DNA of 35,754 nucleotides from Clostridia bacterium (GTDB lineage: Bacteria > Bacillota > Clostridia > RGIG7378), in NCBI GenBank assembly GCA_017559445.1, contig JAFYSJ010000016.1, positions 1 through 35,754 on the forward strand, written 5' to 3'. The notes beneath the pieces were generated by a model that was not told the origin of the DNA, searched no databases, and worked only from the letters and a program-made list of their open reading frames with translations. Made by a program: the position numbers and the translations under genes. Positions 25,833 to 35,621 of the stretch are shown here, one piece after another. The first letter of the stretch is position 1. Each line of letters begins with the position of its first letter.

Positions 25833-27350
25833 TTATTCCTGAGTCTCTTCCCCGGAAGAAGTTTCCTCTAAATTGTTTCCCTCTGGTGTTCCACCTACTG
25901 TTTCCTGTGGTGCATTCTCTGTCTCATATCCTGGCTCAGTTGTAAAACAATACTGACAAACGTGATCTACATATGAGTGAGGTCCTGTGGAACCAATAGT
26001 TACCTTACGATCATTACATGTGGAGCACTCGTGAATTGTATATGCTGCTTCCAAGCAATTTGCGGCCTCAATTACTGTATCTACATACTTGTGGCTACCC
26101 TTTGCTGTGTCGTTAACAACCTTAGTCTCCTGACACTTTGTACATGTATATGTTGTATATCCAAACTTCTGGCAGTCACCATCTGTATGAACACCCTTAT
26201 CAAAGCTGTGATCTGCAACTGCAGTATCCTGCTCTACCTTGGTCTGCTGACAGTTAGTACATGTAAATGTTGTATATCCTGCTGTTGTGCAATCTCCTGC
26301 TGTATGCACGCCATTATCATACTTATGTACACCCTGTGCCTTAGGAACAGTCTGCAAATATGCAGCTGCACACTTAGAGCACTTGTAGTAGCTGTATCCA
26401 TCTCTTACGCATGTTGCCTCAGAGGACTGCTTACTATCCATTACATAATCATGTGCACAGTTAGCATCTCCTGCATCAATCACAACCTTATCTGTTGCAC
26501 CTGGTGTAGGTGTTGGTGTAGCAGTTGTGCCTGGAACTGGAGTTGGTGTTGGATCGTTACCATTTGTTGGAGGTGTTGGCGTTGGGATATCTAATGTAAT
26601 ATCTGCATTTGCCAATCTATCCTGAAGTGCAGACTGAGAGTAAACTGTGTTAATATCACCCTTTGCCTGCATATCGTACAAGGACTTAGCAACTCTACCA
26701 GACAACATAGATACATCTCCTAAGTTGTTAGCCTCAATCTCACACTTACCTGTAGTAGTAATCTTGCTTGTGTTCATTATGTAACCAGATGCCACATTCT
26801 GAGCAACCTCAGCGTTAAGCTTAGTTGCAGTAAGCTTAAGGTTAACTGCGTTTGACACAACATGGAGCTTAGTGCCCTCATAGTCTGTCATTGCATCTAC
26901 TTGAACAACATAAACAGCTGGATCCTCTGCAGTAATAGTTGCACTATCTGTAGTAATAATAAAGGAACCGTCGCCAATGCTTGTACCAACATTTACCAGC
27001 ATTTCACCCTTGGAAACATCAATAGTTATTGTTCCCTTTCCTGCTTCGCCCTTGGTCTGCAAAGAAATATTTGTCTGGCCATACATTGTTACGTAGGAAT
27101 CATCGTCAAACTTAACTGTAATCTCGCCAGCTTTAACAGAAACATTATCCCCAGATTCAAGTGCCACTCCCTGTGTTACAAGGATAGATTTATCTCCTCT
27201 ATAAATGTAAGCCTCTGCTCCATCACAAGCAGATACATACATATCTCTATTAGAGCCGCCTCCAGATACAGCAATAATAATTACAATAACTGTGAGAACA
27301 ACTATAGCAAGACCAGAAAAGAAAACCTTGCCTCTATTTGTAAGTCTCAT
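25833..27350 (-). CDS. Membrane-anchored FecR-like protein with Cys-rich repeats
   Basis: This 505-residue protein has a short basic N-terminus and one membrane helix (about 8-28). An extracellular FecR-like beta-rich domain follows (about 38-200), then a Pro/Thr linker rich in PTPTP (about 256-284), then a Cys/His-rich region (298-468). This last part has four related repeats of about 39 residues of the form C-x(4-6)-GYT/AYT-x(2-3)-C-x-x-C, with CxxC at 324, 364, 403 and 442, and a final CQYC at 465. The acidic tail is rich in Glu. The repeats could bind zinc or form disulfides. The C-terminal part is outside the cell, which is a prediction. Its function is unknown. Confidence 0.75.
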   Translation of the reverse strand: MRLTNRGKVFFSGLAIVVLTVIVIIIAVSGGGSNRDMYVSACDGAEAYIYRGDKSILVTQGVALESGDNVSVKAGEITVKFDDDSYVTMYGQTNISLQTKGEAGKGTITIDVSKGEMLVNVGTSIGDGSFIITTDSATITAEDPAVYVVQVDAMTDYEGTKLHVVSNAVNLKLTATKLNAEVAQNVASGYIMNTSKITTTGKCEIEANNLGDVSMLSGRVAKSLYDMQAKGDINTVYSQSALQDRLANADITLDIPTPTPPTNGNDPTPTPVPGTTATPTPTPGATDKVVIDAGDANCAHDYVMDSKQSSEATCVRDGYSYYKCSKCAAAYLQTVPKAQGVHKYDNGVHTAGDCTTAGYTTFTCTNCQQTKVEQDTAVADHSFDKGVHTDGDCQKFGYTTYTCTKCQETKVVNDTAKGSHKYVDTVIEAANCLEAAYTIHECSTCNDRKVTIGSTGPHSYVDHVCQYCFTTEPGYETENAPQETVGGTPEGNNLEETSSGEETQE

Positions 27351-27555: not shown

Positions 27556-28896
27556 CTATTCTCCAGCTACAGCCATGCCACGAACAAGCACGTCAGGACA
27601 CATAATTCTTCTGTATGCATGACCGCTTGTGTCAATATTATTGTCCAGCTCCTCAATATCCTTAAGCAATGAGAAGAAGTTACCTGCAACTGTGAATGAC
27701 TTAACTGCTCTACCTACCTTACCGTTTTCGATCATAAAGCCTGCACTCTCAATTGAGAAATCACCTGTAGTTGTGTTTGCACCTGCATGGAAACCCTTCA
27801 TCTCTGTAACATAAACGCCACCATCTGCCATAGCTAAGAGTTCATCCTTAGATACAGTTCCTGGCTGAATCAACAGATTAGAATAGCCTGTCATAATCTT
27901 AGCACCGCTGCGCTGTCCATTACCTGTGGACTCAACACCGTCTTTAAGAGCTGTTGACAAGTTGTGCAAGAAGAGCTTAAGTTCACCATTCTCGATAATA
28001 TTCTTAGTATATGTGGGAACGCCCTCGCCATCGAAGTTCATCTGCAGGTTATTACCTGGGAAGAATGGGTCATCTGTAATTGTAACCTTGCTAGAAGCTA
28101 TATCTGTACCAAGCTTTTCCTTAGTTAAAGGAGAAAGGCCCTTCTGCACGCTATCTGCAAAGAAAACTGACAAGAATGTACCCAAAATCTGTGTCATGGA
28201 CTTACGATCAATAACAATATCGTACTTACCAGTCTTAACTGCACCTGCACCAAACTTAGATGCTGCAGCCTCTGCTGCTTCCTTAGCATCTGCATTTCTG
28301 TCAATCTCATCAAAGTTGCATCTACGCACCTTATAGTCCATCTGCTTCTCTGTGCCATTATCCATGGCTGCCATCATGTATGTGACAGTACCAGAACCCT
28401 TACGAGATAAATTAAGGCCATTTGAGTTAAGAATATGCTCCTCAGAAGACCAAACCTCTGCTGCACATGCTGTACCATCTGCCATTCTCTCATCTACTGC
28501 ATACAAACTCTTAGCTCCTTCAATAGCAAATGCCTTTAGCTCAGCTGCAGAAACATTTACCTCAGGGCACTCTACAACTGCCTTGTACTCAGCACCTGCT
28601 GCATAAAGGATTGGCTTATCGTCATTTTCTGTAACTGTGGCATTCTCTACCGCTCTTGCAATCAAAGCCTGAATTTCCTCTTCGGAAACAAGCTCTGTTG
28701 TAGCAACGCCCATCTTTCCATCCTTAACAACTCTCATCTGCATTGTGCAAGATGTACCACTGGTAAAGCTGTCAATATCATGCTGGAAAGTCTCACATCC
28801 GGTGTTAGAGGATGCGTCGTAATAAAGCTCGTACTCTGTAATACCAAAGTCTGCTGTAACCTTTTTAACTAATTCAACAATTCTATCGTATGTCAT
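27556..28896 (-). CDS. pmbA: TldE/PmbA subunit of the TldD-TldE metalloprotease
   Basis: This 446-residue protein is the TldE/PmbA partner of TldD. It keeps the family fold but has no HExxxH zinc motif, as is normal for TldE. TldD/E heterodimers trim unfolded or modified peptides, such as microcin precursors. I start at MTYDRIVELV (28896), with GGGAGG upstream; a longer frame begins inside tldD. It lies just after tldD, so the pair is co-expressed. Confidence 0.93.
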   Translation of the reverse strand: MTYDRIVELVKKVTADFGITEYELYYDASSNTGCETFQHDIDSFTSGTSCTMQMRVVKDGKMGVATTELVSEEEIQALIARAVENATVTENDDKPILYAAGAEYKAVVECPEVNVSAAELKAFAIEGAKSLYAVDERMADGTACAAEVWSSEEHILNSNGLNLSRKGSGTVTYMMAAMDNGTEKQMDYKVRRCNFDEIDRNADAKEAAEAAASKFGAGAVKTGKYDIVIDRKSMTQILGTFLSVFFADSVQKGLSPLTKEKLGTDIASSKVTITDDPFFPGNNLQMNFDGEGVPTYTKNIIENGELKLFLHNLSTALKDGVESTGNGQRSGAKIMTGYSNLLIQPGTVSKDELLAMADGGVYVTEMKGFHAGANTTTGDFSIESAGFMIENGKVGRAVKSFTVAGNFFSLLKDIEELDNNIDTSGHAYRRIMCPDVLVRGMAVAGE

Positions 28897-28912
28897 ATCT
28901 TTGTCCTCCCAA

Positions 28913-30295
28913 TTATGCGCGTCCGCCAACTGTAATAGAACGAACCCTAATAAGAGGCTGTCCTACGTCTGTTGGAACTGATCCACTTGCGGAACCACAC
29001 ATTCCCTGTCCTGTTGCAAGATTCTGACCAACCATATCAATCTCGTGAAGAATCTCAGATCCTGTTCCGATAAGAGATGCTCCCTTAACTGCTTCGCAAA
29101 TCTTACCATTACGAACAATGTAGCCCTCTTCTACTGCGAAGTTAAACGCTCCTGTCATTGGGTGTACAGAACCACCACCCATCTTAGCTGCATAAAGACC
29201 ATACTCCATAGAAGCAATAATATCCTCATTCTTGTCAGGGCCATTGCAAATCATTGTGTTTGTCATACGAGATGTTGGTTCAAAAGCATAGCTCTGACGT
29301 CTCGCATTACCAGTAGGTGCCATGCCCATACGACGACCATTGAACTTATCGATCATATATGACTTAAGAATACCATTCTCAATAAGAACGTTACGCTGAG
29401 AAGGTGTACCCTCGTCGTCAATGTTGATAGAACCCCATGCATTGGGAATAGTACCATCGTCAATTGCTGTAACCTTGGGGTTAGCAATCTGCTGACCAAG
29501 CTTACCACACATCTGAGATGTGCCCTTTGCTACGCTTGTTGCCTCCAATGAGTGACCACATGCCTCGTGGAAAATAACGCCACCGAAACCGCTCTCGATA
29601 GCTACGGGCATCTTACCAGCAGGAGCATAGGCTGCTGTAAGTTTAACCATAGCCTCTCTAGCTGCCTCACGTCCGATGTTCTCAGGCTGGAAAATATCAA
29701 AGATTTCAAGACCCATGCGACGTCCTGGAGAGCATGTACCACTAGCTCTCTGTCCATCCCTCTCAGCAATAGCTGTTACAGGCATTCTAGTACGAATCTG
29801 TCTATCCTCTGTGAACAAACCCTCACTGTTAGCAATCTGAATCTGGTGGTCTACATCCAACAATGTAGCTGAAACCTGTACGATTGCAGGATCATACTCC
29901 TTAGCTGTGAAGTATGCTCTCTTAAGCAAATCAATCTTAACGCTCTTGAACTCTGTATCAGGAACGATCTTTACTGGGTGAATATTGGGGAAAATTCTAG
30001 ATGTAAGGTGAATCTTAACCTCTGCCTTGCTCTCTGAAATAGCACCAGCAACATTGTTGGCACAAAGCAAAAGTCCCTCTCTAGACAAATCTGTAGTGGA
30101 AGCAGAAACACAGCGCAGTCCCATAAAGGCTCTGATACCTACACCAGAAACTGTGCTGTCTGTAATAGAGTCAACTCTACCACCAATCATGTTAATACTA
30201 TTATTACGTGTGTAATCTACAAAAACTTCTGCAAAGTCTGCTCCGGTAGACATAGCCGCTGCCAGAACTTCCTCTAATAATCTCTTTTCTAACAT
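28913..30295 (-). CDS. tldD: TldD catalytic subunit of the TldD-TldE metalloprotease
   Basis: This 460-residue protein is the zinc-bearing subunit; the HExxxH motif reads HEACGH at 243-248. In E. coli the TldD/E pair degrades relaxed peptides and matures microcin B17. No peptide-antibiotic precursor or modifying enzyme is visible nearby, so a housekeeping role is likely. AGGAGG lies before the ATG. Confidence 0.95.
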   Translation of the reverse strand: MLEKRLLEEVLAAAMSTGADFAEVFVDYTRNNSINMIGGRVDSITDSTVSGVGIRAFMGLRCVSASTTDLSREGLLLCANNVAGAISESKAEVKIHLTSRIFPNIHPVKIVPDTEFKSVKIDLLKRAYFTAKEYDPAIVQVSATLLDVDHQIQIANSEGLFTEDRQIRTRMPVTAIAERDGQRASGTCSPGRRMGLEIFDIFQPENIGREAAREAMVKLTAAYAPAGKMPVAIESGFGGVIFHEACGHSLEATSVAKGTSQMCGKLGQQIANPKVTAIDDGTIPNAWGSINIDDEGTPSQRNVLIENGILKSYMIDKFNGRRMGMAPTGNARRQSYAFEPTSRMTNTMICNGPDKNEDIIASMEYGLYAAKMGGGSVHPMTGAFNFAVEEGYIVRNGKICEAVKGASLIGTGSEILHEIDMVGQNLATGQGMCGSASGSVPTDVGQPLIRVRSITVGGRA

Positions 30296-30372: not shown

Positions 30373-30882
30373 TTACTGTCTTTCGTCGTACATTTTGCAC
30401 CCCTTGGTCCACATGAGCCAAAGGAAAATAATATCTGACACAATGTATACAAACGTCACTGGAGCTGCAGTTGCAACGAGCACCGCGTATCTAGAAAGAT
30501 TAAAGCCCCCATCCATCCAAAGGGTGGAGAACAGGTCCATAACAAGAGAAAAAGCCGCTCCAGATATTATTCCACAGGGAATCACTGTCCACTTACCCTT
30601 GCGCAATGCAGGTGCTACAAGACCTGCCATCAAGCCAATCAAACCCCATGCCATCATTTGGAACGGGGTCCACATTCCCTGCCCGAAGGCAAAATTAGAA
30701 ATAAGCGCAGACATGGCTCCGCATGTAAAACCATACCATGGTCCAAGAGCAAATCCGGCCATAACCACCATGGCAGAAACAGGCTTAAAGAAAGGCAAAA
30801 AGGCAAAGCAAACTCTACCCAGCACCGAAAGTGCTGTGAACACTGAAAGCTTAACTAATTTGTCTACCCTTTTAGCTGTCAT
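30373..30882 (-). CDS. ECF transporter S component, predicted corrinoid-specific
   Basis: This 169-residue membrane protein has about five to six hydrophobic helices and fits the ECF S-component size. The segment GALISNFAFGQGMWTPFQM-like (about 56-76) matches a family of S components that occur with ECF modules. S components bind the substrate and deliver it by toppling in the membrane. A cobalamin riboswitch upstream of the operon predicts B12 or another corrinoid as the substrate. The start overlaps the ATPase stop by 4 bases (ATGA). Confidence 0.82.
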   Translation of the reverse strand: MTAKRVDKLVKLSVFTALSVLGRVCFAFLPFFKPVSAMVVMAGFALGPWYGFTCGAMSALISNFAFGQGMWTPFQMMAWGLIGLMAGLVAPALRKGKWTVIPCGIISGAAFSLVMDLFSTLWMDGGFNLSRYAVLVATAAPVTFVYIVSDIIFLWLMWTKGCKMYDERQ

Positions 30883-32462
30883 GCCTTAACTCCCAATACC
30901 TCATCTGTTGTAATTGCACCATCTATCCAGCCTCTGCAAATAGAGACTGCTCTTGTAGTAAAGAATCTGTTGTCACACAGAAACTTATGTGGCTCCTGAG
31001 GATCGGACAAAGTGCCGTCAAAGAGAACTGACACTCTATCGCACTCTGCTACAAGTTCTGTATCATGGGTTACCGCCAATATGGCAACCCCCCTATTTCT
31101 CATGGCTTTAAGAACTTTTACCAAATCCTGTCTACCCTTAGAGTCTAAACTGCTAGTTGGCTCATCCAGCAATAAAATGGAAGGTGAGCTTAACATAACT
31201 TTTGCAAGAGCTACCCTCTTTTGTTCTCCGCCAGAAAGCTTAAGTGGATTACGATTCAAAAGATGTGCAATATCCATCTGCTCTGCAATTTCAGATACTT
31301 TATTCTCCCTGTCTGCTTCCTTAACTCCTAACAACTCCAATACGTACTCCAGGTCCTGCTTAACTGTATCGTGGAGAAAAAGTTCTGTTACGTCCTGAGG
31401 AAGCTTTGCCACCCTCTGATCTTTAACCACAGTTACACCCTTTTCAGCCTTGGAAATGGCCTTTAGAAATGTGGATTTTCCAGATCCGTTGGCTCCCATT
31501 AGGCACATAAACTCTCCCCTATGAAGTTCAAAATTTACGCCTCTTAGAATATACTCTTGATCCCTGTTATGCTTGTACCATAGGTCCTTTGCCTTCAAAA
31601 CAGTCGTATTAAGTTCTATTTTATCGCAAACGATGCTTTTTTCCTCCTTAGGTAGCGTTTTTCTCACATATTCACGGGATTCGCTTAAGGAAATGGGACA
31701 TTTCCCCTGTGCTCCAGAACCCTTCCAGATTTTCCAAGCAGTGGTACCACTTTCCTGCAGGCTCATTTGCTCCAAAACTTCTCTTGTGGTGCCCTGTAGC
31801 ACTATCTGTCCCTTGTCCATTAAGCACATTTTGTCACAAAGATGCACCACCTTATCCAAATCATGCTCTACCAAAACTACGCTTAGTCCAAACTCATTCT
31901 TCACCCTCTGAAGAAGGTATAAAAATTCTTCTGCAGAAACGGGATCCAATCTGGATGTGGGCTCGTCCAAAAGCAAAACCTTAGGTTCCAAAACAAGCAA
32001 AGATGCCAAGTTAAGGACCTGCTTTTGTCCACCAGAAAGCTCCCATGTGTTTTTGTGGAACAGATGACTAATACCCAAGAATGCAGAAATCTCTGCACAT
32101 CTTGCCATTATCTCCTGCTGTGGAAGACCCAAATTTTCTAAGCCATATGTGAGCTCCCGATACACCTTATCGGTAACAATCTGAGCCTCTGGATTTTGGC
32201 ACATGTAACCAATGGTAGCTACTGTTTCCTTAGTGGTTGTTTCTGGCATTGGCTTTCCATCCAATATAATCTCACCAGACATTTGACCTACGCCTCTAAT
32301 CTCAGGCTTAAGCAAACTAAGAAGGGTGGATTTACCGCTGCCAGACTTGCCTGCGATCAAGGTAATCTCACCGGGAAGAAGTTCCAAGGACACATTGCTA
32401 ATAGCCGGTCTCTGAGATCCTGCATATGTAAACGTTAAATTGTTAACAGATATTAAGCTCAT
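30879..32462 (-). CDS. ECF transporter ATPase, two fused ABC domains
   Basis: This 527-residue protein joins two ABC domains that in most ECF transporters are separate A and A' proteins. The first has Walker A GKSGSGKST (38-46), LSGGQKQ and LLLDEPTSRLDP. The second has Walker A GANGSGKST (about 327-335), LSGGEQKR and LLLDEPTSSLDS. Both appear catalytically complete. A charged linker (about 255-300) separates them. Start and stop overlap the neighbours by 4 bases, so it is firmly part of the operon. Confidence 0.93.
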   Translation of the reverse strand: MSLISVNNLTFTYAGSQRPAISNVSLELLPGEITLIAGKSGSGKSTLLSLLKPEIRGVGQMSGEIILDGKPMPETTTKETVATIGYMCQNPEAQIVTDKVYRELTYGLENLGLPQQEIMARCAEISAFLGISHLFHKNTWELSGGQKQVLNLASLLVLEPKVLLLDEPTSRLDPVSAEEFLYLLQRVKNEFGLSVVLVEHDLDKVVHLCDKMCLMDKGQIVLQGTTREVLEQMSLQESGTTAWKIWKGSGAQGKCPISLSESREYVRKTLPKEEKSIVCDKIELNTTVLKAKDLWYKHNRDQEYILRGVNFELHRGEFMCLMGANGSGKSTFLKAISKAEKGVTVVKDQRVAKLPQDVTELFLHDTVKQDLEYVLELLGVKEADRENKVSEIAEQMDIAHLLNRNPLKLSGGEQKRVALAKVMLSSPSILLLDEPTSSLDSKGRQDLVKVLKAMRNRGVAILAVTHDTELVAECDRVSVLFDGTLSDPQEPHKFLCDNRFFTTRAVSICRGWIDGAITTDEVLGVKA

Positions 32463-33103
32463 ACGCCCTCCTTTCTCTTATCCAAGCAAGCTCCTCGTGC
32501 CACCATGGATGTGGCTGTTATTCTTCCGTTCTCGATTCCCCAATCCATAAGACCTGAGAAACATATTACGGCCTGTTTTATTTTGCTAAATGCTCCAGTC
32601 TTTTCTGGCAGTCCCAAGGCTCTATGGCTTTCCTGCATGTTATCCCACCTTCTCTTGTAAAGCGGAATAAGTCTGAGGGTCATAGAAAGCACTACAACAA
32701 CCTGAGGTGAAAACCTCTTAAATATGTGGCTTAGCTTTTCTTCTGTCATTACATGGTTCCAGCAACCGCTCCAAAGGATAACTGCAATAAGCATTATTCC
32801 AAGGGATACACCCTGCAAAATTGCCTCTACCGTAATTGGTCTACCGTTTATAAAAATCAGCACTGTAGATCCCGTTGTTGAAACAAGCGGATTAATAATC
32901 ACTAGCAGCGCAAATAGTCCTGTCACGGATTTGATCGTCAAAACAAGTTTATTAAATCCTATCAACAGGCCATGAACAATAGATGCTAGAACCAAGGACA
33001 TTAAGGCCCATTTCCAATCCCTAAGGAAACATGTGACCACCATGGGAATTCCAAAGTACAAAAGTGATACGTAAGGACTTTTTCGATTAAAGAAATCAGT
33101 CAT
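32459..33103 (-). CDS. ECF transporter T component (EcfT/CbiQ family)
   Basis: This 214-residue transmembrane scaffold connects the S component to the ATPases. About five hydrophobic helices are present. EcfT proteins carry two Ala-Arg-Gly-like motifs on coupling helices: the second is intact (MVARGAC near residue 205), while the first reads HRALG. I start at MTDFFNRKS (33103), 8 bases after GGAGG; the earlier ATG overlaps that site. The gene overlaps the end of the transcobalamin-like gene by 8 bases. Confidence 0.88.
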   Translation of the reverse strand: MTDFFNRKSPYVSLLYFGIPMVVTCFLRDWKWALMSLVLASIVHGLLIGFNKLVLTIKSVTGLFALLVIINPLVSTTGSTVLIFINGRPITVEAILQGVSLGIMLIAVILWSGCWNHVMTEEKLSHIFKRFSPQVVVVLSMTLRLIPLYKRRWDNMQESHRALGLPEKTGAFSKIKQAVICFSGLMDWGIENGRITATSMVARGACLDKRKEGV

Positions 33104-34622
33104 TGCTCTGTCCTCCATAGCTTTCTACATAGCGAAGCTCCACCACATCTCCTGCCTTAAGCTGGTAATTGTCTACACCAACTTGTGGCTGCACACCATT
33201 TACGTAATACACCCATCCTGATGTTGCCCCCCTATCTCCCTCTGCTAAATCTCCAATAGAGCTAATATACGCATCCCAACCAGACACATAGCTCATTGGA
33301 ATTCCCTTGGACCTAGTTGCGCGATACACCAGTTCAAAAACAGTATCTCCCTCAAGTAGAGCATATTCCTGCATACCAATAATAGCCTTATCTCCGTCCA
33401 TAATTGACATCGAAACCGTAAGGCTTTCATCTGTAATCTCTGGCAAATTGTAACTGTAGAATTGGTCTGGCGTCTCGATTCTTGAAAAGAAAATAAATCC
33501 AGATGATACAAGCCCCACCAAGGAAATTGTGATTATGTCCATTGGCGAAAATCTCTTTTTAACACAACCAAAAGTTAAATAAATTGCAAATGCGACAAAA
33601 ACAACACCTGCCACAACGATTTGAATTTTCTTAATATCTACTATATCCTCTGGAACTCCTTCCACAAGCTGACCGCTACCGAATTCATATTCATCAAAGG
33701 TGTAAATTGAGCCCGCTCCACTATCTGCCATATCCATAGCAACTAAGGCCATTATCGCCTGAGCTGTAGCAGTCATGTTTAATTGGCCACCTTCCATATG
33801 AACGTACCCACCTGTGGAAAGCTTGTATGTATTAAGCACTTCTGCTAGAGAGCCAAAATCTCCCTTCAGTTCCGTTTTGTAGTCAAGACCGAGAGTTGTA
33901 AGGGCAACTATTACCTGTGCCACAGATTCGCAATTTTCCACCCCATAGGACAAAAAACTACCGCTGCTTTGCTGGGAGTTTCTCAAATAATCCAAAGCCT
34001 TATTTACAGCATCCTGAACTTTCTGCTCCTGATAATACGGTGCCAAGGCCTGAATTGTCATAGCTGTAATATCTACTGTAGACGCCTCTGGATTAAGTCC
34101 CCATCCACCAGTGCTTCCCTGCTGGCTAAGCAAACTGTCAACACATCTAGAAACATCTGCCTGCTCTCCCAAATTGGAATAAATATGCAGTGCAAAAACA
34201 ATGCTCATTATGCCTTGCTTACCTTCTGTCTCTCGGGCAACTTCAAACACTTCTTCCTTTGAAATTCCACCGCAAACATACTGTACCAAAGCTATCTTTT
34301 GCATAGTAGTTGCTGGAAGGTTCTTCGTCTCTTCCAAATATTTGTCCAAGGCATTTAAGTAAGCGTCGAAGTTATAACTCTGTTCATATTGTCTAATGGA
34401 CAAAACTATAAACTCCGCTCCCTTACCTGCCATATTTGTCAAAGTTGTATCTAATAAATGTTGCACGCTGTGACAGGAACCTAAGTCACTGCTAAGTAGG
34501 ACCTGTTCTACCTCTACACCGTACCCCTCTGAAGCCATGGCGCCAATTGGACACCACAAAATAGCCATCACCAAGGCGATAGCCACTATTACTTCAATTG
34601 TCCTGCACAGCTTGCAACTCAT
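33096..34622 (-). CDS. Membrane-anchored transcobalamin-like protein (alpha/alpha barrel plus DUF4430)
   Basis: This 508-residue protein starts with a signal/anchor helix (about 9-28). Residues 30-305 hold at least five helix pairs of the squalene-cyclase/prenyltransferase barrel type, for example IALVQYV (110-116), GGWGLNPEASTVDITAMTI (172-190) and SVAQVIVALTTLG (233-245). Two membrane helices follow (about 342-360 and 366-382), with KKR between them. The C-terminal domain (about 405-500) matches DUF4430, the transcobalamin-like C-terminal domain, including AYISSIGDL, SGWVYYVNG and LKAGDVVELRY. In intrinsic factor and transcobalamin an alpha barrel and such a beta domain clasp B12. Both domains are predicted to be outside the cell. 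GAGG lies 11 bases before the ATG. A role in corrinoid capture is inference. Confidence 0.85.
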   Translation of the reverse strand: MSCKLCRTIEVIVAIALVMAILWCPIGAMASEGYGVEVEQVLLSSDLGSCHSVQHLLDTTLTNMAGKGAEFIVLSIRQYEQSYNFDAYLNALDKYLEETKNLPATTMQKIALVQYVCGGISKEEVFEVARETEGKQGIMSIVFALHIYSNLGEQADVSRCVDSLLSQQGSTGGWGLNPEASTVDITAMTIQALAPYYQEQKVQDAVNKALDYLRNSQQSSGSFLSYGVENCESVAQVIVALTTLGLDYKTELKGDFGSLAEVLNTYKLSTGGYVHMEGGQLNMTATAQAIMALVAMDMADSGAGSIYTFDEYEFGSGQLVEGVPEDIVDIKKIQIVVAGVVFVAFAIYLTFGCVKKRFSPMDIITISLVGLVSSGFIFFSRIETPDQFYSYNLPEITDESLTVSMSIMDGDKAIIGMQEYALLEGDTVFELVYRATRSKGIPMSYVSGWDAYISSIGDLAEGDRGATSGWVYYVNGVQPQVGVDNYQLKAGDVVELRYVESYGGQSND

Positions 34623-34625
34623 TTA

Positions 34626-35366
34626 CTATTTAACCTCAATAATACACAAGGCAGCTACGTAGTAATTGCCTTCTGTCTCCAATGCAACTGAATATGTACC
34701 TGCTGCATCGAAAGAAACAGTAACTGTTCCATCCTCGCCAGTAACATACTCTGTTGTCTGTCCGTTAACTGTAATCACTGCTCCAGAAATGGGTGCTGTT
34801 ACAACGTTGAAATTAGCATCGTAACACTGACCTTTAAGAGTCAAAGTCACTGCTTCTCCAACTGCAACTGAGGAATAGTTTACGTCAAAGCTTGTATAGG
34901 AATCAGACCACATAACCTGGTCGCGGTAGATATATGCAACTACCAAATCTCCCTCCTTGACCTCGTCGCTAAGAGACATGCTGGAAACATTGTTTAAATA
35001 GTAACCAAATGCACCGCTTGTGTCTCCCCACAACATTGTAAGACTAAGTCCGTACTCTGTGTCTGCTGTAGCAAAGCCCAAACCATCTCCCTTGTACTGG
35101 CTAGCGTGTGCACAATACAAAGCATCTGCAATGGTATACTTGCCATCCTGGTCCACATCTGTAACGTCGATTTCTACATTTGCAATTGCAAAGCTACCAT
35201 CTGCTCCATTTACTCTAACTGTGACAGAAATACTATCAGCAGAGGGTGCTGGAGTGGCTGTAGCTCCAGGTGTAGCTGTAGGCTGACCACCTGTTGTCTC
35301 CACGTTTCCACATGCGGAAACCATTAGCATTACTGCAACAAGCAGCAGAGCTAAAATCTTCTTCAT
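34626..35366 (-). CDS. Lipoprotein with DUF4430-like and Ig-like domains, riboswitch-controlled
   Basis: This 246-residue lipoprotein starts at MKKILALLL (35366), 7 bases after GGAGG. The lipobox is VSAC with the lipidated cysteine C19. A Thr/Pro/Ala linker (22-42) leads to a beta-rich domain (about 48-150) with TIADALYCAH, GYYLNNVSSMS and VKEGDLVVAYIY, which resembles DUF4430 weakly. A second Ig-like domain fills 155-246. As first gene behind a cobalamin riboswitch, it is a likely surface corrinoid binder. The longer frame to 35432 runs into the leader terminators. Confidence 0.8.
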   Translation of the reverse strand: MKKILALLLVAVMLMVSACGNVETTGGQPTATPGATATPAPSADSISVTVRVNGADGSFAIANVEIDVTDVDQDGKYTIADALYCAHASQYKGDGLGFATADTEYGLSLTMLWGDTSGAFGYYLNNVSSMSLSDEVKEGDLVVAYIYRDQVMWSDSYTSFDVNYSSVAVGEAVTLTLKGQCYDANFNVVTAPISGAVITVNGQTTEYVTGEDGTVTVSFDAAGTYSVALETEGNYYVAALCIIEVK

Positions 35367-35379
35367 ACAAAAACCTCCA

Positions 35380-35412
35380 ATAAAATAACTCCCACTGGAA
35401 ACAGTAGGAGTT
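35380..35412 (-). terminator. Second leader terminator, next to the lipoprotein ribosome binding site
   Basis: An 11-bp stem, arms 35387-35397 and 35402-35412 with one G-T pair and loop TTTC on the minus strand, is followed by ATTTTATT. The lipoprotein ribosome binding site GGAGG lies only a few bases further on. Confidence 0.75.
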
Positions 35413-35430
35413 AGACAAAAGAGACAACAC

Positions 35431-35458
35431 AAAAAGCACAGGGCATTTAGCCCGTGCT
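35431..35458 (-). terminator. First leader terminator, riboswitch expression platform
   Basis: AGCACGGGC (35450-35458) pairs with GCCCTGTGCT (35435-35444) with one bulge, loop TAAAT, and is followed by TTTTTGTGTTG on the minus strand. It lies 20 bases past the aptamer and is the likely switch point for transcription attenuation by B12. Confidence 0.82.
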
Positions 35459-35478: not shown

Positions 35479-35621
35479 CACCCCCTACTTACCCAGGGTG
35501 ACTGGAGTCTCTATATGCAATGTGCATTCCGACTGAGGGCTACTAGGACCCAATACGGCAATGGCTGTTGCGACGGATTCTCACCGCACTTTCCACAAAT
35601 ACATATTTCGGATAGAGACTC
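35479..35621 (-). ncRNA. Cobalamin riboswitch aptamer
   Basis: On the minus strand, a perfect 10-bp P1 joins GAGTCTCTAT (35612-35621) with ATAGAGACTC (35505-35514). Inside are GCGGTGAGAATCCG (35574-35587) and CGCAACAGCC, core sequences of cobalamin aptamers, and a B12-box-like CAGTCGGAATGC (35524-35535). Directly after P1 a hairpin CACCC...GGGTG (35479-35500) fits P13. It controls the lipoprotein, transcobalamin-like and ECF genes downstream. Confidence 0.9.

Follow-up and report, generated by a model that had tools for sequence, protein, structure and literature searches.

A membrane-anchored toroid/SLBB protein as candidate capture protein of a cobalamin ECF importer in a Clostridia bacterium

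Results

An operon headed by a cobalamin riboswitch encodes a candidate B12 capture protein

We analyzed a stretch of 35,754 nucleotides from a Clostridia bacterium (hereafter the window), the minus strand of which carries an operon headed by a divergent cobalamin riboswitch (Table 1). The operon encodes an ECF transporter and a 508-residue membrane protein, P0001, in which an alpha/alpha toroid and an SLBB beta-grasp domain are joined by a membrane hairpin. P0001 very probably acts on the outer face of the membrane as capture protein for an ECF importer that is specific to cobalamin, and its toroid and SLBB domains would probably close over a cobamide. An earlier note on this DNA had proposed an anchored B12 receptor beside an ECF transporter; that proposal is strengthened by riboswitches here and on related operons, by a CbrT-like S-component, by an apparent B12 auxotrophy with MetH as the B12-dependent enzyme, and by fold matches to two-domain B12 carriers.

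Table 1. Features of the operon and its leader (window coordinates; residue numbers refer to P0001)
Feature	Position	Strand	Basis
Divergent cobalamin riboswitch aptamer (AdoCbl-II/Cobalamin clan, Rfam CL00101), heads the operon	35505..35621	minus	sub-threshold RF01689, model R1
Aptamer closing stem arms	35598-35621 / 35505-35528	minus	24-nt inverted repeat enclosing the core
Terminator-like hairpin with T run, after the aptamer and ahead of the first gene	35435..35458	minus	8 pairs, then TTTTTGTG
Second terminator-like hairpin, immediately upstream of first gene	35386..35413	minus	12 pairs, then TTTTATTG
P0002, companion surface lipoprotein	34626..35366	minus	lipobox-like SACG, DxDxDG loop
P0001, toroid / membrane hairpin / SLBB protein	33096..34622	minus	one 508-aa ORF
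P0001 N-terminal signal/anchor helix, residues 3-29	34536..34616	minus	AlphaFold2 model, hydropathy
P0001 alpha/alpha toroid, about residues 38-301	33720..34511	minus	AlphaFold2 model; Pfam SQHop
P0001 membrane hairpin, residues 330-354 and 360-379	33486..33635	minus	model, hydropathy
P0001 DUF4430 / transcobalamin-C-terminal-like SLBB beta-grasp, residues 402-499	33126..33419	minus	Pfam, fold search
EcfT (CbiQ-like)	32459..33118	minus	CbiQ match under the cut-off (E 4e-4); place in the operon, homologues
EcfAA', single chain with two ABC ATPase domains	30879..32462	minus	TIGR04520 E 7e-100
EcfS (P0003), CbrT-like membrane substrate-binding component	30373..30882	minus	ECF_trnsprt E 3e-10

P0001 has two predicted outward-facing domains on a membrane hairpin

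The plus strand of 33096-34622 is full of stops, and the 508-aa reading frame lies on the minus strand. Pfam assigns residues 425-499 to DUF4430 (E 1e-17, above the cut-off) and residues 180-294 to the C and N families of SQHop_cyclase, barely over the cut-off (E 7e-8 and 4e-6). An AlphaFold2 model computed from an alignment of 58 sequences has a mean pLDDT of 85 and a pTM of 0.61, the linker at 312-327 being poorly ordered. The hydropathy peaks agree with the modelled helices and the motif KKR (355-357) sits in the turn of the hairpin, so that both the toroid and the SLBB domain are predicted to face outward. Within the toroid, D184 and T186 (in VDITAM) are invariant in an alignment of 36 toroids. 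The complete toroid-TM-TM-beta-grasp plan recurs in six relatives (L049, L050, L051, L052, L005 and L006), indicating that it is due neither to chance nor to a gene-calling error; the copy in a sister genome (L055) is truncated by the contig end. Pfam, AlphaFold2 and these six relatives thus bear out the two-domain membrane protein of toroid and DUF4430 that the earlier note had read at this place, and hydropathy and the KKR turn agree with its placing of both domains outside. A hairpin does separate them, although the span given for it, 342-382, begins about 10 residues late compared to the modelled 330-379.

The toroid and SLBB domain are encoded as adjacent, separate proteins in many relatives and as one chain in others. 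In two split pairs (L054 and L015), a membrane helix and then basic residues close the toroid protein, and the SLBB protein opens with basic residues ahead of a membrane helix. Joining the inward ends of such a pair would give exactly a P0001-type hairpin and, judged from these sequences, the hairpin of P0001 looks like a join of this kind. In other split forms the toroid is anchored differently. The best tree favors fusion on two separate occasions, with L051/L052 placed within the split forms, but a one-clade test rejects a common origin of all fused proteins only marginally (p 0.048).

Further arrangements were seen among the relatives. At L053:230-2359, one ORF of 709 aa contains the companion, toroid, membrane hairpin and SLBB domain, with no ECF genes in the 9 kb examined. 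The C-terminal ends of the split-form toroids of L058-L060, L066 and L068 resemble S-layer-homology repeats, which suggests anchoring to the wall rather than the membrane. At L014:5518-9126, L018:5572-11837 and L020:4070-6294, an SLBB protein stands beside large surface proteins of beta-propeller appearance, with no toroid; ECF genes are present as well at L014 and L018.

The P0001 model matches animal B12 carriers over both domains

The 15 best PDB matches of the P0001 model in a Foldseek search were all transcobalamin (TC), haptocorrin (HC) or intrinsic factor (IF), with E values from 2e-9 to 3e-7 and alignments that cover both domains (483-523 columns); all three carriers were placed ahead of every cyclase. 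The idea that P0001 shares its two folds with the animal B12 carriers was borne out by these matches. The beta domain of human TC alone also matched P0001 (TMt 0.76 for 5np4 and 0.74 for 5no0). The toroid alone resembles cyclases and prenyltransferases about equally well, and its match is therefore not diagnostic by itself; the joint two-domain match is the informative one. At the sequence level, the nearest PDB relatives of the toroid are squalene-hopene cyclases. Profiles of the P0001 domains (A2 and A8) retrieved no TC, IF or HC from the PDB sequences; the fold search alone did so.

The full alignment of P0001 to the animal carriers has an rmsd of about 17 A, which means that the domains of the model are placed differently from those of closed TC. 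The comparison of a predicted structure with the carriers, which the earlier note had called for, gave matches that span both domains, while the closed arrangement is not what the model shows. The linkers in the model look long enough for closure. Separated TC domains, and likewise those of IF, assemble only once Cbl is added (PMC5599065); this cobalamin-driven assembly indicates that splitting or tethering of the two halves is compatible with function. Given the two predicted membrane helices (330-379) between its domains, P0001 may work like TC or IF without being filed in their family.

P0001 adjoins an ECF transporter with a CbrT-like S-component

On the minus strand, the order is leader RNA, P0002, P0001, EcfT, EcfAA' and EcfS, with gene ends that touch or overlap. 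The neighboring ECF transporter noticed earlier is therefore real: T, the fused AA' and S follow directly downstream of P0001 with overlapping ends. The same order of riboswitch, companion, toroid/SLBB, T, AA' and S is shared by L049 and L050, which belong to two further families within the class.

A profile of the S-component family (A10, n=10) matched CbrT (6fnp_A) with E 9e-22, compared to E 2e-4 for the next solved S-component (4hzu_S); P0003 alone matched 6FNP with E 0.0024. By profile comparison, the closest solved structure to the EcfS family is that of CbrT, a vitamin B12 S-component. The 6FNP entry is ECF-CbrT, through which Lactobacillus delbrueckii takes up vitamin B12. Both cobalamin and cobinamide are substrates of CbrT, and hemin does not compete (PMC5997447).

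The operon is followed on the same strand, about 78 bases after the S-component, by a TldD/PmbA-like pair (window 27556-30295, minus). We take this pair to be of peptidase type and know of no link between such proteins and B12 uptake. Further on (window 25833-27350, minus) lies a surface protein of 505 aa with a FecR-type domain, a Pro/Thr stretch and a series of repeats, each about 35-40 residues long, that contain CxxC.

The first gene encodes a second candidate beta-grasp protein

The companion P0002 was absent from the earlier note. Its model has a predicted beta-grasp-like domain and an Ig-like domain, making it a second candidate beta-grasp protein of the operon, and a homologue is kept as upstream neighbor in L049, L050, L055, L005 and L006. 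A profile comparison of P0002 with SLBB gave a weak relation (E 0.004, probability 8.5%), and a fold search against the PDB returned mostly Ig-like domains, the TC-like beta-grasp not being confirmed there. Some relatives (L051, L054 and L062) have at least two SLBB proteins. The beta-grasp of P0002 and of its relatives in L049, L050, L005 and L006 contains a conserved DxDxDGxxTIxDAL that resembles a dockerin/EF-hand calcium loop. The companion is lipid-anchored in the window and has a C-terminal membrane helix instead in L049, L050 and L005.

A compact cobalamin riboswitch heads the operon

No Rfam family reached its gathering threshold in the window. The leader resembled a cobalamin riboswitch by eye and was rescanned permissively. 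It matched RF01689 (AdoCbl-II) with 22 bits and E 0.011, below the gathering score of 36.5, and this was the sole RF01689 match in the whole genome in the permissive scan. At the same place, the sister genome (L055) matched RF00174 (Cobalamin) with 15.9 bits; the elements of L049 (36.1 bits) and L050 (43.8 bits), in the same operon position, pass the RF00174 threshold, and the core of the window leader aligns with both as a near-identical sequence. A model, R1, was built from the elements of three relatives with the window left out; it found window 35506-35605 at 80.8 bits (E 3.7e-22) and also picked up elements of L053 and L006 that precede toroid or companion genes. In the paired core, 7/15 pairs have changes on both sides that keep the pairing; with 7 sequences and a small covariation term, this is no more than suggestive. 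The first of the two terminator-like hairpins (35435-35458) is likely to be the expression platform of the leader.

These elements form a compact subtype of cobalamin riboswitch (window 35505-35621 on the minus strand, L055:1575-1673, L053:266-365 and L006:4469-4550), of which the three-sequence model finds 6 close members. Since the elements of the window and the sister genome score below the Rfam gathering scores, standard annotation misses some members of the subtype.

Cobalamin riboswitches are linked to toroid/SLBB loci across the class

Searches at the level of family and order gave one other genome only, and a class-level search was therefore used. Relatives of P0001 were found in 153/391 sampled genomes of the class, and 20 related loci were taken from the high-scoring matches. 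An above-threshold RF00174 element lies on the operon's strand in 12/20 of these loci, where genome-wide counts would predict 0.22 (P about 2e-17). Two of the other 8/20 (L053 and L055) carry an R1 element. It should be noted that the class scan used stricter filters, so that weak riboswitches may be missed. In 9/10 genomes with exactly one detected cobalamin riboswitch, this element heads the toroid/SLBB locus; in the tenth, L052, the contig end cuts just upstream of the operon. The link between riboswitch and locus is also seen at the Clostridium akagii, Inconstantimicrobium porci and Anaerofustis loci.

The genome appears to depend on imported cobamide

The genome is 1.68 Mb long and about 96% complete, and the absence of any gene is provisional for this reason. 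Only one protein with a B12-binding domain, MetH, was found. The single TP_methylase match in the genome, of 293 aa, has an RsmI-like size, so that no corrin-ring methylase set was detected. A search of the genome for adenosyltransferases, which covered the BtuR type, found none. The FecCD permease family (PF01032) had no match in the genome, compared to matches in 13/14 control genomes, which indicates that there is no BtuC; a BtuFCD-type ABC importer of B12 was rejected on this ground. Going by gene content, the cell appears to be a B12 auxotroph with a B12-dependent MetH, in need of imported cobamide, and among the families searched, no importer candidate other than the P0001 operon came up in the genome.

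Discussion

The architecture of P0001, the operon, the homology of the riboswitch, the relation of the S-component to CbrT, the fold relation to the animal carriers and the presence of MetH were computed directly. From these, we infer how P0001 would bind cobalamin, close, hand over its ligand and be regulated. The toroid and SLBB domain would lie side by side outside the cell, tethered by the membrane hairpin. Cobamide would probably bind to one of them and the other would close over it, by analogy with transcobalamin and intrinsic factor. Loaded P0001, possibly together with P0002, would then hand the cobamide to the CbrT-like S-component, the T/AA' module would power import, and the imported cobamide would serve MetH. 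At high levels of cobalamin, the leader riboswitch would halt transcription of the operon at the terminator. For the full form of this scheme, a ligand-closed clamp whose hairpin-tethered halves close on cobamide like intrinsic factor and open onto the CbrT-type S-component, we see a slightly better than even chance. Such a clamp would make P0001 a dedicated ECF capture protein and the counterpart, mechanistically and perhaps by descent, of the animal carriers.

The operon may serve B12 uptake without the two domains of P0001 clasping one ligand jointly: the toroid may pair with P0002, and the SLBB domain may dock to the S-component or hand the ligand off to it. We regard this arrangement as possible, if doubtful. 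It would account for the presence of a second predicted beta-grasp-like surface protein, P0002, kept in the five loci named above, for the two or more SLBB proteins of some relatives (L051, L054, L062), and for a P0001 model that lies outside the closed arrangement. However, the toroid and SLBB domain behave as a pair, either fused or directly neighboring and in the toroid-then-SLBB order of the animal carriers, and one Foldseek alignment to TC spans both domains of P0001; moreover, the sequence relation of P0002 to SLBB is weak, and most of the PDB structures that it matches are Ig-like. The nature of the corrinoid is a separate matter. CbrT takes up cobinamide as well as cobalamin (PMC5997447), and a cobalamin riboswitch fits the uptake of precursors too, so that cobinamide or another precursor, and not a complete cobamide, might be the main substrate. 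We consider this quite unlikely, as MetH requires a complete cobamide and neither a BtuR-type adenosyltransferase nor a corrin methylase set was found in the genome.

A cargo other than a corrinoid has very little in its favor. ECF importers of heme are known, such as LhaSTA of Staphylococcus lugdunensis (PMC7299338), and this system might carry heme or another tetrapyrrole. The cobalamin riboswitches on the operon and on most sampled relatives, the kinship of S with CbrT, which hemin does not compete (PMC5997447), and the B12 carriers among the fold matches of P0001 all argue against heme, which we rejected as highly improbable. Hardly credible is the reading of the toroid as an enzyme, whether terpene cyclase, prenyltransferase or polysaccharide lyase. 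The Pfam assignment to SQHop cyclase and the squalene-hopene cyclases at the top of its sequence-level PDB relatives point that way. P0001 lacks the catalytic DxDD motif anywhere in its sequence, however, and on this ground the terpene cyclase reading was rejected; it is also extracellular by prediction, encoded in a B12-linked operon, and closer in fold to TC, HC and IF than to any cyclase.

The proposal of a capture protein for cobamide has a precedent, since the idea of a B12 receptor of this kind was, in outline, already published in 2007. Burroughs et al. (2007, PMC1796856) describe fusions of toroid and SLBB in bacteria that lack B12 synthesis, encoded in operons together with CbiO/CbiQ and a further SLBB protein; they predict B12 scavenging, and propose that animals acquired the toroid/SLBB pair from low-GC Gram-positives. 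Experimental follow-up of the scavenging prediction was not found in a survey of the open-access literature. What is new here is the hairpin-tethered form, the association with a riboswitch, the CbrT-type S-component and the check for auxotrophy. This type of operon links the domain-based prediction of 2007 with a cobalamin riboswitch and a CbrT-type S-component, and it is a concrete candidate whose capture protein has relatives in the 153/391 class genomes mentioned above. Should the clamp prove real, it would show that ECF importers are able to use capture proteins on the outside, and purified proteins could then serve to test the proposal that the animal B12 carriers are of bacterial origin.

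Compared to the systems of 2007, P0001 likewise joins an extracellular TC-clade SLBB domain to a toroid, its operon has CbiO/CbiQ-like genes (the CbiQ match being weak, E 4e-4), and de novo B12 synthesis was likewise not detected in its host. The second extracellular protein is a paralogous SLBB protein in those systems; here it is P0002, predicted to be beta-grasp-like plus Ig-like, with weak profile similarity to SLBB. The membrane hairpin, riboswitch and CbrT-like S-component examined here are unmentioned in the available part of that paper (PMC1796856). With TC, IF and HC, P0001 shares an alpha/alpha toroid at the N-terminus and a beta-grasp at the C-terminus. In P0001, however, the two are joined by a membrane hairpin, and the protein is anchored in the membrane beside a bacterial ECF importer, whereas the carriers are secreted, have a soluble linker and use an endocytic receptor; among PDB sequences, none of the carriers matches the P0001 domains at the level of sequence profiles. 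BtuG and BtuH of Bacteroidetes are likewise B12-capture proteins of the outer surface encoded with an importer (PMC6977713, PMC8941943), but they are Gram-negative proteins that act with BtuB, and BtuG is a beta-propeller rather than a toroid and beta-grasp. With ECF-CbrT, the system has in common the T/AA'/S plan and the inferred substrate. There, CbrT itself is the substrate-binding subunit of a group II system, whose module is shared with other S-components, whereas the operon described here encodes a dedicated ECF module accompanied by putative outside capture proteins.
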